Origin: Synechococcus sp. CC9311
Lineage (GTDB): Bacteria > Cyanobacteriota > Cyanobacteriia > PCC-6307 > Cyanobiaceae
Assembly: GCF_000014585.1 (NCBI RefSeq)
Contig: NC_008319.1
Location: 558,001-622,000, forward strand
DNA: 64,000 nt
Reading direction: 5' to 3'
Numbering within the stretch: position 1 is the stretch's first letter; every line of letters starts with the position of its first letter. A model generated the notes under the pieces. It was given only the letters and a program-made list of their open reading frames with translations. It did not search any database and had not been told where the DNA came from. The position numbers were made by a program, and so were the translations under genes. Positions 44,561 to 52,446 of the stretch are shown one piece after another.

Positions 44561-45706
44561 TTAACTTGGATAGTAGTAAAAAGCTGCTCCAAAAATTGCG
44601 AACATTCCTAAAAGGAGAACACCTTCAAGCCAATTGGATTTGGCATCCATATTGACCAGATTCACAATTAAGACACTAAAGATGAGGGCTATGACTTCAA
44701 ATGCTGTGAAGTCAAGATTCATGGGCTGGCCGATGAGAGATCCGATAATGATCAGTGCTGGGGCGATGAGTAGGGCAACGAGCAAGCTGGAACCCATTGC
44801 CAACGAGATTGGTAGATCCATCTGATCTTTCCAGGCACCTTTTACAGCAGGCACATACTCGGAAAAGCCTCCAATGATCGGAATAATGATGATTCCGGTA
44901 AATAAGGCGCTAAACCCAAGCTGCTCTGTTGCAGGCTCTAAAAAGTGAACAAAGCTTTCAGACTGATAGGCTAAAAGTGAAGTGCAAAGGATTAATTGTA
45001 CGATCCAGGGCAATAGATTTATGCTTTTTGCCGCTTCTTGCGGTAGCTCAGTCGCATCGTTTTTAATATGTTGGGGGTCAAAGAGATGGCTGTGAGTTGC
45101 AAGAGAAAAGATTAAAGTTAAGACGTAAATAGCGATGAGAATCACCGCAACGGTCATTGATAAACCGTGAATTGCAACGGGATCATCAATCCCTGATGTA
45201 CTAATGAGGGACGCAGGTAGGGCCATCGCCATGACAGCTAATGTCATGGCCGCTCCGTTGGTGCGAACCATGGTTTCTTGAAAACTTTGTTCGCTATATT
45301 TCAATCCTCCAACAAGCATTGCTACGCCTGTAACAAGTAGCAGATCCGAAAGAATTGCTCCGGTGATACTTGCTTTGACGACATCAATGAGGCCAAGTCT
45401 TAGGGCCGATAGGGCAATGATAAATTCCGCAAAATTCCCAAAGACGGCAGTGCAGATTGCTCCAATGGTTGGCCCACTATGCTCTGCAATTTCTTCAGTT
45501 GCATCACTTAGTAGCAGCGCAATAGGAATGATGCCTGTGGCTGAAACAATGAAACAAATGAGAGTCGGCCATTCCTGCATTGAGGCCAACTGTGTAAGCC
45601 CCAACATTGTGAGGGCTGGAATGAATTTCCAACGCCCGGAGTCTACGAAGGAGGAAGTGAGGCTTTTCGGTATGGGGTCGTCGGTTTGGTTAACGTTTGA
45701 GTGCAT
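44561..45706 (-). CDS. Ca2+/H+ antiporter (CaCA/CAX family), variant motifs
   Basis: An integral membrane antiporter of 381 aa with about 11 helices and two inverted alpha repeats. The first repeat reads VFGNFAEFIIALSALRLG and SITGAILSDLLLVTG; the second GGFSEYVPAVKGAWK and SLAMGSSLLVALLIAP. In typical CAX proteins the second repeat has Asn before the Glu and Gln after GSS; here they are Gly-Phe-Ser and Leu, so ion choice or stoichiometry may differ. It is 45 bases downstream of the ligand-binding protein gene on the same strand. Confidence 0.82.
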   Translation of the reverse strand: MHSNVNQTDDPIPKSLTSSFVDSGRWKFIPALTMLGLTQLASMQEWPTLICFIVSATGIIPIALLLSDATEEIAEHSGPTIGAICTAVFGNFAEFIIALSALRLGLIDVVKASITGAILSDLLLVTGVAMLVGGLKYSEQSFQETMVRTNGAAMTLAVMAMALPASLISTSGIDDPVAIHGLSMTVAVILIAIYVLTLIFSLATHSHLFDPQHIKNDATELPQEAAKSINLLPWIVQLILCTSLLAYQSESFVHFLEPATEQLGFSALFTGIIIIPIIGGFSEYVPAVKGAWKDQMDLPISLAMGSSLLVALLIAPALIIIGSLIGQPMNLDFTAFEVIALIFSVLIVNLVNMDAKSNWLEGVLLLGMFAIFGAAFYYYPS

Positions 45707-45751
45707 GTATCGTTTGGAATAATTGGGTTGGGATTTTTGTTAAGGTTAAAT

Positions 45752-46960
45752 TTATGGCTCCCATTGTTGTGCCCCAAAAAATGTGAGCTCAACGTAGTCG
45801 CTTGCCTGCTTATTGTTGCTTGATAAGTCTAACTGAAATCCTCCTAAATCTACTTTTTTGATCGACTTCAGGCTTTTGATTAGGCTCTCTTTTGTAAGTG
45901 GCCCTTGAACCTTCTTGATGCCTTCGGTGATTAATCTAGCAGCCATAAATCCTTCCAAGCTTGTGAAACCAAATCGAGCTGAAGAATTATTCACGCGCAT
46001 GAGCCGTTGATAGTCTGCGACCACTGGAATCCAGCGATCCCAAGGAAAGGGAACCACTTGGCTCACCCCAATGCCATTGGCAAGCCCTACAGGCAATGAT
46101 TGTTCCAGGGCTCTGGTGCCAACAAAAGACACATTCATGATCTGAGCATTAACATCCCTTTTCAGTAACTCTCTGCTTAACGCTGCCGAGCTCACGTACG
46201 TTGAGATGATGATAATGGCGTTTGGTTGGCTGGATATCAGCACTTGAAGTGCTGATTGGATTTTGGCAGAGTTCCTTTGAACGGTTGCGGTCGCAATTGG
46301 CTTCAGGCCATGCTTTTTCAGGGCTGATTCTGCAGACTTCAGGCCATCTTTCCCAAAGGCATCATCCTGATAAATGATTGCTATTTTTTGTCGTGCATTA
46401 CGAACAAGACTGTCAACAATTTTATCTATTTCCATCTGATAGCTGGCTCTTAAGTTCACTACCATTTTTAATTTTTCATCACGCAGGATTGAGGCACCTG
46501 TTAGAGGGGCGATGAGGGGAACTTTTCTTTCTTCAATGAATGGAAGTATTTCTTTCGTTGTGGGTGTGCCTACATAGCCAAAGAGAGCAAGAAGGTTGGG
46601 TTTCTCGAGCAGTGTTTTGGTATTGCTGATGGTCAGTTCAGGCTCATACTGGTCGTCAAGGCTGATCAAACGTATTTTTTTTCCGTTGATTCCTCCCTGT
46701 CGATTCACTTCGTTAAACCATGCTTGGGCGCCGGCCTGATATTTTTTTCCTATTTGAGCCGAAGGTCCGCTCAGTGGTAAGGATTGGCCTAGGAGGATCG
46801 TATTCTTGCTATCAGAGGTAATTTGGGTGTCTTTTTGTTGGGCTGATGTGGCAGCTATCGATAGACTAAGCCCAAATGTTATGAGGGTACTTCGACGAAG
46901 AATTGTTGCTATGAGCTTAACTGGTAAAACGCTTTTGTGATTTGCTGCTCTTTTTTTCAT
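45752..46960 (-). CDS. Periplasmic ligand-binding protein (type I, branched-chain-amino-acid-like)
   Basis: A Peripla_BP type I protein (402 aa from the ATG at 46,960). A signal peptide (STLITFGLSLSIAATSAQ) precedes ILLGQSLPLSGPSAQIGKKYQAG, the LivJ-type start, and AGVGG-like INGKKIRLISLDDQY, FGYVGTPTT, IIYQDDAFGKDGL and SLEGFMAARLI. No ABC permease or ATPase gene is adjacent, so it is an orphan receptor. Its start codon overlaps that of the ion channel gene on the other strand. A start at 47,035 is possible but would reach into the channel gene. Ligand unknown. Confidence 0.85.
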   Translation of the reverse strand: MKKRAANHKSVLPVKLIATILRRSTLITFGLSLSIAATSAQQKDTQITSDSKNTILLGQSLPLSGPSAQIGKKYQAGAQAWFNEVNRQGGINGKKIRLISLDDQYEPELTISNTKTLLEKPNLLALFGYVGTPTTKEILPFIEERKVPLIAPLTGASILRDEKLKMVVNLRASYQMEIDKIVDSLVRNARQKIAIIYQDDAFGKDGLKSAESALKKHGLKPIATATVQRNSAKIQSALQVLISSQPNAIIIISTYVSSAALSRELLKRDVNAQIMNVSFVGTRALEQSLPVGLANGIGVSQVVPFPWDRWIPVVADYQRLMRVNNSSARFGFTSLEGFMAARLITEGIKKVQGPLTKESLIKSLKSIKKVDLGGFQLDLSSNNKQASDYVELTFFGAQQWEP

Positions 46961-48197
46961 GACGAAGGTTCGAAGACGGAGAAAGTGGAACATCTTGGCG
47001 ATCGCGTCAGTTGTTCTGGCAGCCTTGCTTTCCATTATTGGAGTAACTAGTCTAAATGTTGATCAAGTGCCAGGCCGTGATTCCCTGCGTCTTTCTTCAG
47101 CTTCTCGGGCATTAACCACATCAGCGGATCGTCTCCCTCGCGATGGCTGGAGTTCACAGAGAGGAGAGTCGTTAAGCGGTAGTGAAATTCAAGCTGATAT
47201 TGAAGCACTCGATGATGCGAAATACCATGTGAAGATTGGAGTGTATTCAAATAGTACCTACGATCTTGACTTAAGTATTCCTAGTTTCTCCTCCAATGGC
47301 TACGTGTGGATGCGCTGGAAGCAGCCTCTCCAGGATTACTTAGAGGCTAATAATACAGATTTGCAAGAGCACATTTCATTGCTTAATGCGTTGTTGTCTG
47401 ATGCGGATCCTGTGTTGCATCCTGTGCAGGATAAGCCAGCAGTCTTGTCTGATGGTACGTATTACCAGCTTTATACTTATGTTGGTCGATTTTATATTGA
47501 TAGTGCAACTTTTAAGAGGTTCCCGTTCCTCACTATTAGTTTGCCGATCGCGATTGAAGCTGATGATGTCGCGGGAGGGCTTGGCTATACGAAGCTGCGT
47601 TTTGAGCCTGATATTCGAAATAGTGGGATGGGCCTTTATGCGGGAACAGGAATTATTGGTTGGTTGAATCGTGGTTGGTCGATTGCTGAGTATCGCCATA
47701 ATTATGCAACCAATTTTGGTCTTGGTGGGTTGGACCGGGATTACAGTCTCATTGTCTATGACATCACTTTCGGAACTTCGTCGTGGTCCTCTTTTTGGCG
47801 CTTGATGTTGCCTTTGTTGGTTGTGATGGTGATGGTACTTCTTGTCTTCAAAATCCGCCCTGATGAGCAAGATGCTCGAGCAGGAATTCCTGTCACTGTG
47901 TTGTTGACGTTGGTGTTCTTGCAGCAGGTGTATCGAGGTGAACTCCCTGATCTTCCTTTTCTTACTTTCCTCGATCTGGTTTACGTGATTGCTTACGTCA
48001 TCACATTATTTGCATTTGTGTTGTTGGTTTGGATTGGACGCCGTTATGCCGATATGGAGAGAATGCCCCTTGGAGAGGCACGCGATAATCTCTCCAAACG
48101 ACTTGAACTTCTCGATGAGGTCTGGCCTCTTTCAATGGTGTTGTTTTGTTCTGTTGCTGTTGTGACGGCCTGGGTCTTGATCCCTCCAGGCTCTTAA
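46959..48197 (+). CDS. Pentameric ligand-gated ion channel (Cys-loop type, prokaryotic)
   Basis: A 412-aa member of the Cys-loop receptor superfamily. Residues 11-31 are a signal-anchor-like span. The extracellular beta domain (about 88-275) shows GYVWMRWKQP (115-123) and the loop RFYIDSATFKRFPFLTISL with the conserved FPF but no Cys, as in bacterial members. Four C-terminal spans follow: M1 (about 279-298, with conserved LMLP), M2 (306-326, AGIPVTVLLTLVFLQQVY), the M2-M3 link ELPDLPFLTFLD matching the LPxLPxxT pattern of ELIC and GLIC, M3 (338-359) and M4 (388-408), joined by a short loop. Ligand and ion choice are unknown. Confidence 0.88.
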   Translation: MTKVRRRRKWNILAIASVVLAALLSIIGVTSLNVDQVPGRDSLRLSSASRALTTSADRLPRDGWSSQRGESLSGSEIQADIEALDDAKYHVKIGVYSNSTYDLDLSIPSFSSNGYVWMRWKQPLQDYLEANNTDLQEHISLLNALLSDADPVLHPVQDKPAVLSDGTYYQLYTYVGRFYIDSATFKRFPFLTISLPIAIEADDVAGGLGYTKLRFEPDIRNSGMGLYAGTGIIGWLNRGWSIAEYRHNYATNFGLGGLDRDYSLIVYDITFGTSSWSSFWRLMLPLLVVMVMVLLVFKIRPDEQDARAGIPVTVLLTLVFLQQVYRGELPDLPFLTFLDLVYVIAYVITLFAFVLLVWIGRRYADMERMPLGEARDNLSKRLELLDEVWPLSMVLFCSVAVVTAWVLIPPGS

Positions 48198-51729: not shown

Positions 51730-52446
51730 TTGGGCATGGCCGCCGTTGATTGGTTGTGGATCTTGCATCCTTTCCTTGCAGTCGTGTTGGTCTATCCGTT
51801 GATTGGCGTCGTGGTGCGCTTGGCAGTCCAGACGCGTGCACGTCGGCTCCAGAACCAGAAACTCCCCGCCACGGTGGGGCGTGATCACAGCGATCTGGGG
51901 CGTTGGCTCGCAGCCGCGGTGGTGGTGGTGGTTTTGATTGCGCTCTCTGTTGTGATTGGCACGAAGGCTCCGCTTGCTCAGTTTGAAGGAGGCCTTACGC
52001 GTGCAATTCAGCTGTTGCTTGTGTTGTGTGGAACGATCGTGAGCCTCCTCGCCCTTTGGCGTTGCAAGAGGCCTGGATTGAGGTTGGCTTTTTCTCTAAT
52101 CACCTGGGCCGGAGTGTTGGGGCTTGGTGCCCAACCGGAGGTTTGGAGGCTTTCGGATAACCCCTTGACGCCTGGGTTTTGGCAGTCTCATTACTGGGCT
52201 GGCGTTGGGGTGACGGGCTTGATGTTGTTTTCTCTGGGAGCTCGCATCGAGATCCTGCGTGACATTCGCATCCGTCGTTTGCATGTCACAGCCAACGTGC
52301 TTGCGGCCTTGTTGTTTTTGACGCAAGGCCTCACAGGAGCCCGAGACCTTCTTGAGATTCCCCTCAGTTGGCAGAAATCCACGATCTATGCCTGTGACTT
52401 CAATGCCAAGACCTGTCCTTCACTGGATCCGAATGCACAGTCTTGA
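51730..52446 (+). CDS. DUF4079 family integral membrane protein, second copy
   Basis: A protein of 238 aa with about five spans. WLWILHPFLAVVLVYPLIG, DHSDLGRWLAA, GFWQSHYWAGVG and RRLHVTANVLAALLFLTQGLTG match the protein at 2,653-3,279 (whose end reads RRLHVSMNVVVALLLATQAITG). It carries an extra C-terminal tail (ACDFNAKTCPSLDP) with two Cys. The function is unknown. It is followed 28 bases later by an esterase gene on the same strand. Confidence 0.8.
   Translation: MGMAAVDWLWILHPFLAVVLVYPLIGVVVRLAVQTRARRLQNQKLPATVGRDHSDLGRWLAAAVVVVVLIALSVVIGTKAPLAQFEGGLTRAIQLLLVLCGTIVSLLALWRCKRPGLRLAFSLITWAGVLGLGAQPEVWRLSDNPLTPGFWQSHYWAGVGVTGLMLFSLGARIEILRDIRIRRLHVTANVLAALLFLTQGLTGARDLLEIPLSWQKSTIYACDFNAKTCPSLDPNAQS

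Follow-up and report, generated by a model that had tools for sequence, protein, structure and literature searches.

Within a 64,000-nucleotide stretch of the genome of the marine cyanobacterium Synechococcus sp. CC9311 (NC_008319.1, positions 558,001 to 622,000; hereafter the window; the genome is a single contig of 2,606,748 bp), two divergent genes encode a pentameric ligand-gated ion channel (pLGIC) and a type I solute-binding protein (SBP), which probably represent two halves of one receptor, i.e., a split, SBP-gated cation channel. This reading is drawn by analogy, since other bacteria fuse the same two parts, and the pair of CC9311 is on that basis probably a two-part chemical-sensing channel. 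A survey of 398 Pseudomonadota genomes returned 30 with an LGIC_1 match, and 20 of these 30 loci encode a single protein with an N-terminal Peripla_BP_6 domain followed by the pLGIC (19 recognised with the SBP and channel profiles made from cyanobacteria, the twentieth by Pfam), an architecture first described by Tasneem et al. in 2005 (PMC549065). The pair of CC9311 is unfused and occupies separate divergent open reading frames (ORFs).

Predicted channel fold and orphan status of the binding protein

The channel protein comprises an N-terminal signal or anchor helix, a conserved N-terminal extension (approximately residues 33-85), a beta-sandwich extracellular domain and M1-M4. At the sequence level, it matched LGIC_1 (E 8.6e-7), its best match in the Protein Data Bank (PDB) was a GLIC/GlyR chimera (E 3e-5), the Pfam profile Neur_chan_memb was reached at E 0.0012 with 19.5 bits, i.e., under the gathering score of 28.1, and the Neur_chan_LBD profile gave no match. 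The missed cut-off reflects divergence from an animal-trained profile and is overridden by the fold evidence, a Pfam threshold not being a property of the superfamily. An AlphaFold2 model built from a family alignment of 48 homologues (pLDDT 80.8, pTM 0.75) retrieved only pLGICs among its top 50 Foldseek matches, with GLIC first (E 2e-18), and via structural re-alignment reached a Z of 23.0 against GLIC over 285 residues (model residues 85-409). The Pro-loop proline P189 at the beta6-beta7 tip is invariant (48/48 homologues), and with alignment-based prime numbering of M2 (0' = R307) the pore carries D305 (-2'), R307 (0'), P311 (4') and L316 (9'), positions at which 39, 45, 42 and 42 of the 48 homologues have an acidic residue, Arg, Pro and Leu, respectively. 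Although the sequence match alone is weak, the predicted fold decides, and the identity of the 412-aa protein as a pLGIC is confirmed at the level of the structural model. Because the acidic -2' ring resembles that of GLIC, the channel is probably cation-selective. A phage origin of the channel was considered and rejected (0 matches among 50,697 phage records).

The type I SBP falls into Peripla_BP_6 (E 1.6e-49; 169.9 bits, cut-off 31.7), and its AlphaFold2 model adopts a two-lobed fold with 4kv7 (Foldseek E 5e-32) and 3lop as best PDB matches. Only three Peripla_BP_6 matches exist in the genome, namely UrtA and two channel-paired SBPs, and the only two BPD_transp_2 permeases are UrtBC (2525326-2527456), located directly beside UrtA (2527609-2528790). 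As the only permeases of the matching type adjoin their own UrtA, the SBP is without a dedicated ABC importer of that type in the whole genome. In the A/B SBPs, Gly180 and Ser303 align with Thr102 and Glu226 of LivJ, the residues that bind the alpha-amino group of the LivJ ligand, and the loss of both makes a standard branched-chain amino acid somewhat less likely as ligand. Among the proteobacterial SBP homologues (39-45% identical), neither profiles nor clustering revealed a common partner gene, which indicates that a link to channels is not a property of the entire SBP family.

An initial annotation, made from the letters of the stretch, had described a Cys-loop-type channel divergent from a LivJ-like binding protein with no ABC genes nearby. 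The first part is borne out by the GLIC-like predicted fold, the Pro-loop, the acidic -2' and Leu 9', the second by family and fold, and the third holds across the whole genome for permeases of the matching type. The Neur_chan profile search suggested there delivered less, with one profile below its cut-off and the other unmatched, whereas structure prediction supplied the GLIC fold.

Pairing of channels and binding proteins across genomes

In a synteny survey of 149 relatives (genomes and loci coded G and L), SBP and pLGIC genes were arranged divergently (group A, 13 genomes), convergently (group B, 6) or in tandem (group C, 10). Each of the 21 A/B-type SBPs has a channel-type gene as its neighbour (13 divergent pLGICs, 6 convergent pLGICs and 2 bestrophin-like genes), and every genome carrying such an SBP also carries a pLGIC. 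CC9311 itself holds a channel paralogue (40% identical) that is also located beside an SBP, but convergently, and the pair was found at several unrelated chromosomal positions. Scanning 84,980 species genomes of GTDB with the SBP profile, we observed a pLGIC next to all 16 cyanobacterial loci, WH7803 being among those named, and next to none of 64 proteobacterial SBP loci. Channel and SBP distances were correlated with Mantel r of 0.91, 0.995 and 0.92. Four group-A channels from genomes without any SBP of this type, nested among paired ones (L053, L055, L056, L042), point to secondary loss of the SBP. The three arrangements and two SBP lineages of the survey, which the initial annotation had proposed, together with the fusions of Pseudomonadota, strongly substantiate the pairing claimed there; no report of the two-gene pairing was found in the open-access literature, which misses many subscription papers.

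Further hints come from the protein termini. A C-terminal WxP tail occurs in 18/18 aligned A/B SBPs and in all 15/15 full-length SBPs that the species scan recovered, and is absent from the proteobacterial ORFs (0/70) and from the bestrophin-paired SBPs (0/2). An N-terminal extension around R[DE]xL[RQ]L[ST]S is common to the channels of groups A and B and lacking in those of group C. In the fusions, the SBP C-terminus runs into the ligand domain of the channel and, as the same two ends are covalently joined there, tail and extension are our proposed docking elements.

Group C involves different lineages on both sides. An ATGA overlap joins the stop codon of the channel to the start codon of the SBP in 10/10 Synechococcus genomes (L037-L041, L065-L069), the SBPs group with UrtA (support 100/99; row U_L135 of the tree, from a wrong-frame ORF, is disregarded) and show full Peripla_BP_5 matches (E 3e-124), and the channels form their own clade (support 100/100). 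As both partners fall in separate lineages, the association of pLGIC and type I SBP looks to have arisen two or more times, unless a partner exchange took place. Several of these genomes keep a separate UrtA at about 46% identity. Orphan urtA genes of picocyanobacteria have been suggested to use other ABC machinery, and their partner was reported as unresolved (PMC8786288); the group-C SBPs are possibly these genes, with the overlapping pLGIC as candidate partner. Group-A and group-C pairs were also observed no more than about 5 kb apart, like a small SBP-channel island (L039, 5846-13201, in G009; L037 in G029), and G029 holds an additional channel fragment.

Two A/B-like SBPs are not adjacent to a pLGIC (G009:C2:91354 and G080:C3:67214), and each is followed by a bestrophin-like PF14023 gene (E 1e-16 and 2e-25, respectively). 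This arrangement (L151 in G009:C2, 3533-6500; L152 in G080:C3, 4357-6402; a PBP_like_2 protein is also present in G009) is a possible operon of an SBP and a bestrophin-like channel. The bestrophin-like gene was restricted to 2/149 relatives, and 292 genomes sampled from the cyanobacterial phylum gave no further match. In addition, L250, L269 and L071 contain two adjoining pLGIC genes, of which, in L250, one is SBP-fused and the other is not; heteromeric bacterial channels are a possible explanation.

Gene starts and the neighbouring antiporter

The initial annotation had placed three ORFs and quoted motifs of the channel, all of which were recovered in position and translation, respectively (Table 1; SBP ORF as listed, 45752-47035, minus strand). 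As listed, the SBP ORF comprises 427 aa and shares 77 bases with the channel ORF. Since its first 25 codons merely complement channel coding sequence, the most likely start judged from the sequence is Met26 at position 46960, not 47035. The resulting CATG overlap of both start codons recurs in six relatives (G014, G030, G013, G026, G009 and G029). In the SBP/channel region, matches to promoter consensus sequences were no commoner than in shuffled sequence.

Table 1. Features of the SBP-channel locus (window positions)
Feature	Position	Strand	Basis
pLGIC subunit, 412 aa	46959..48197	+	Sequence matches, AlphaFold2 fold, Pro-loop and pore residues
Type I SBP, exported, orphan, 402 aa from the most likely start, tail GAQQWEP	45752..46960	-	Peripla_BP_6, AlphaFold2 model, genome permease scan
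CATG, head-to-head overlapping ATGs of SBP (-) and channel (+)	46958..46961	.	Direct sequence reading
CAX-type Ca2+/H+ antiporter, co-directional with SBP, 45 nt downstream	44561..45706	-	TIGR00378

The CAX-like gene described initially at 45 bases behind the SBP matches TIGR00378 above cut-off (327.8 bits, cut-off 211.15, E 8e-98) and its distance was confirmed. However, the three-gene signalling module built on it is not supported as a general feature, as CAX is clade-restricted, absent beside other pairs and survives the deletion of SBP and channel. It accompanies the pair in 7/13 group-A loci, corresponding to seven species of one Synechococcus clade that share a single syntenic block (murE-CAX-SBP/channel-aminotransferase), and in none of groups B and C; the group-A pairs of G034, G090, G053, G080, G074 and G073 are located elsewhere, without CAX. 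G007 and G020 have lost both SBP and channel through one near-identical deletion each (window-equivalent 45.86 to 48.1 kb), with both flanks spared; CAX is intact in G007 and truncated by a 79-bp deletion in G020 (draft assembly). The scars, in which the last SBP and channel codons remain between CAX and the aminotransferase gene, are located at L045 6700-7000 (G007) and L153 3100-3200 (G020). On synteny and deletion scars, CAX was rejected as a general third component; it is a neighbour in one clade, at most accessory and not a defining part, with possible co-expression.

Apart from CAX, a DUF4079 membrane-protein gene is located 3.5 kb from the pair (window 51730-52446). A second DUF4079 gene is convergent next to a group-C pair (L067 4287-5054), and ORFs of similar size and place occur in several group-C genomes, both of which may be due to chance.

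Proposed mechanism, alternatives and known systems

In the proposed split receptor, the secreted SBP would bind a small solute in the periplasm and, loaded or empty, dock on the extracellular face of the pentamer; the contact would probably be made by the WxP tail and the channel's N-terminal extension. Docking would open or close the probably cation-selective pore, and the cell could in this way read the availability of a nutrient or metabolite as a depolarised membrane or as a Na+/Ca2+ signal. What we infer here is that the two proteins dock, that the SBP gates the channel and that the pore selects cations, together with the physiological output. Several observations weigh against this proposal. 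The group-A channels of G008, G012, G027 and G076, from genomes without an A/B-type SBP, are nested inside group A, which shows that a channel can, at least in some genomes, do without this SBP. Furthermore, the correlation of channel and SBP distances is also explained by shared vertical descent, the adjacency of divergent genes with overlapping starts is partly self-preserving, the WxP tail may be inherited merely by descent of the A+B SBP clade, and the SBP could instead feed UrtBC.

An alternative option, proposed by Tasneem et al. for bacterial channels (PMC549065), is that the SBP acts as concentrator: it would capture a ligand and raise its local level for binding at the orthosteric site of the channel itself, without gating by docking. 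This would account for the pairing with different SBP lineages and for the survival of SBP-less channels, but we consider it unlikely, as the fusions put the SBP directly N-terminal of the ligand domain and the tail is specific to channel-paired SBPs, both of which suggest contact. Quite improbable is also the three-gene module, in which CAX would reset Ca2+ entering through the channel: the co-directional gene with its short gap in seven species, the restriction of this CAX ortholog, within the genus, to this locus and its truncation in G020 after loss of the pair speak in its favour, whereas the missing CAX at the other six group-A loci and in groups B and C, and the intact gene of G007, do not fit, and a single ancestral locus explains every CAX occurrence.

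That the SBP serves uptake as an orphan, sharing the UrtBCDE permease and adjoining the channel for historical reasons, appears very unlikely. Orphan SBPs sharing permeases are known, the genome contains a UrtBC-type permease pair, and use of foreign ABC machinery has been suggested for orphan urtA (PMC8786288); however, the same pairing is seen in three arrangements and with two SBP lineages, and no A/B-type SBP occurs in a genome that lacks a channel, widespread as UrtA is. Least credible, in our view, is a hitch-hiking cassette held together by overlapping starts and horizontal transfer without any functional contact. The CATG overlap and the different genomic sites would be consistent with such a cassette, but the convergent pairs of group B, the tandem pairs of group C and the fusions are all free of the start-codon constraint.

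If the split SBP-gated channel is real, orphan SBPs of abundant ocean phototrophs would gain a candidate partner, and bacteria would have a counterpart to the ligand domains of animal glutamate receptors, which resemble binding proteins. As of 2016, pLGICs of unicellular organisms had no known biological role (PMC4795631), and a genetically separable, dedicated SBP partner in cultured marine cyanobacteria makes such a role testable. More speculatively, and with some doubt, the pair might belong to a general class of bacterial ionotropic receptors in which an SBP gates a pentameric channel in trans; picocyanobacteria would have combined LivJ-like and UrtA-like SBPs independently with pLGIC and bestrophin-like channels, while SBP and channel are fused in Pseudomonadota. 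In that case, the orphan UrtA proteins of Synechococcus would act as chemosensors of urea-like compounds and not as importers.

Compared with known systems, the channel shares with the proton-gated GLIC of Gloeobacter violaceus the common fold, the Pro-loop and the acidic -2' ring, but is only 18% identical and differs by Leu at 9' and 11' (His at 11' in GLIC), Pro at 4', the N-terminal extension and the paired SBP. DeCLIC likewise carries a periplasmic accessory module on a prokaryotic pLGIC, which is, however, fused and not an SBP (PMC12664993). The SBPs have the fold and family of the LivJ/UrtA-type proteins of HAAT ABC transporters (Peripla_BP_6 for groups A and B, UrtA-like for group C), whereas that of CC9311 has no cognate permease beside it, and the genes of the group-C SBPs, unlike the orphan urtA of marine Synechococcus as reported so far (PMC8786288), overlap a pLGIC gene. 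The proteobacterial PBP-I-pLGIC fusions (PMC549065) combine the same two domain families that are split into adjacent genes here; in that study, the cyanobacterial members had a simple, animal-like architecture and the stand-alone neighbours were PBP-II, not type I. The fusion architecture is already published; the pair of CC9311 is its split counterpart, and the UrtA-type pair and the bestrophin-like pair are the extension made here.

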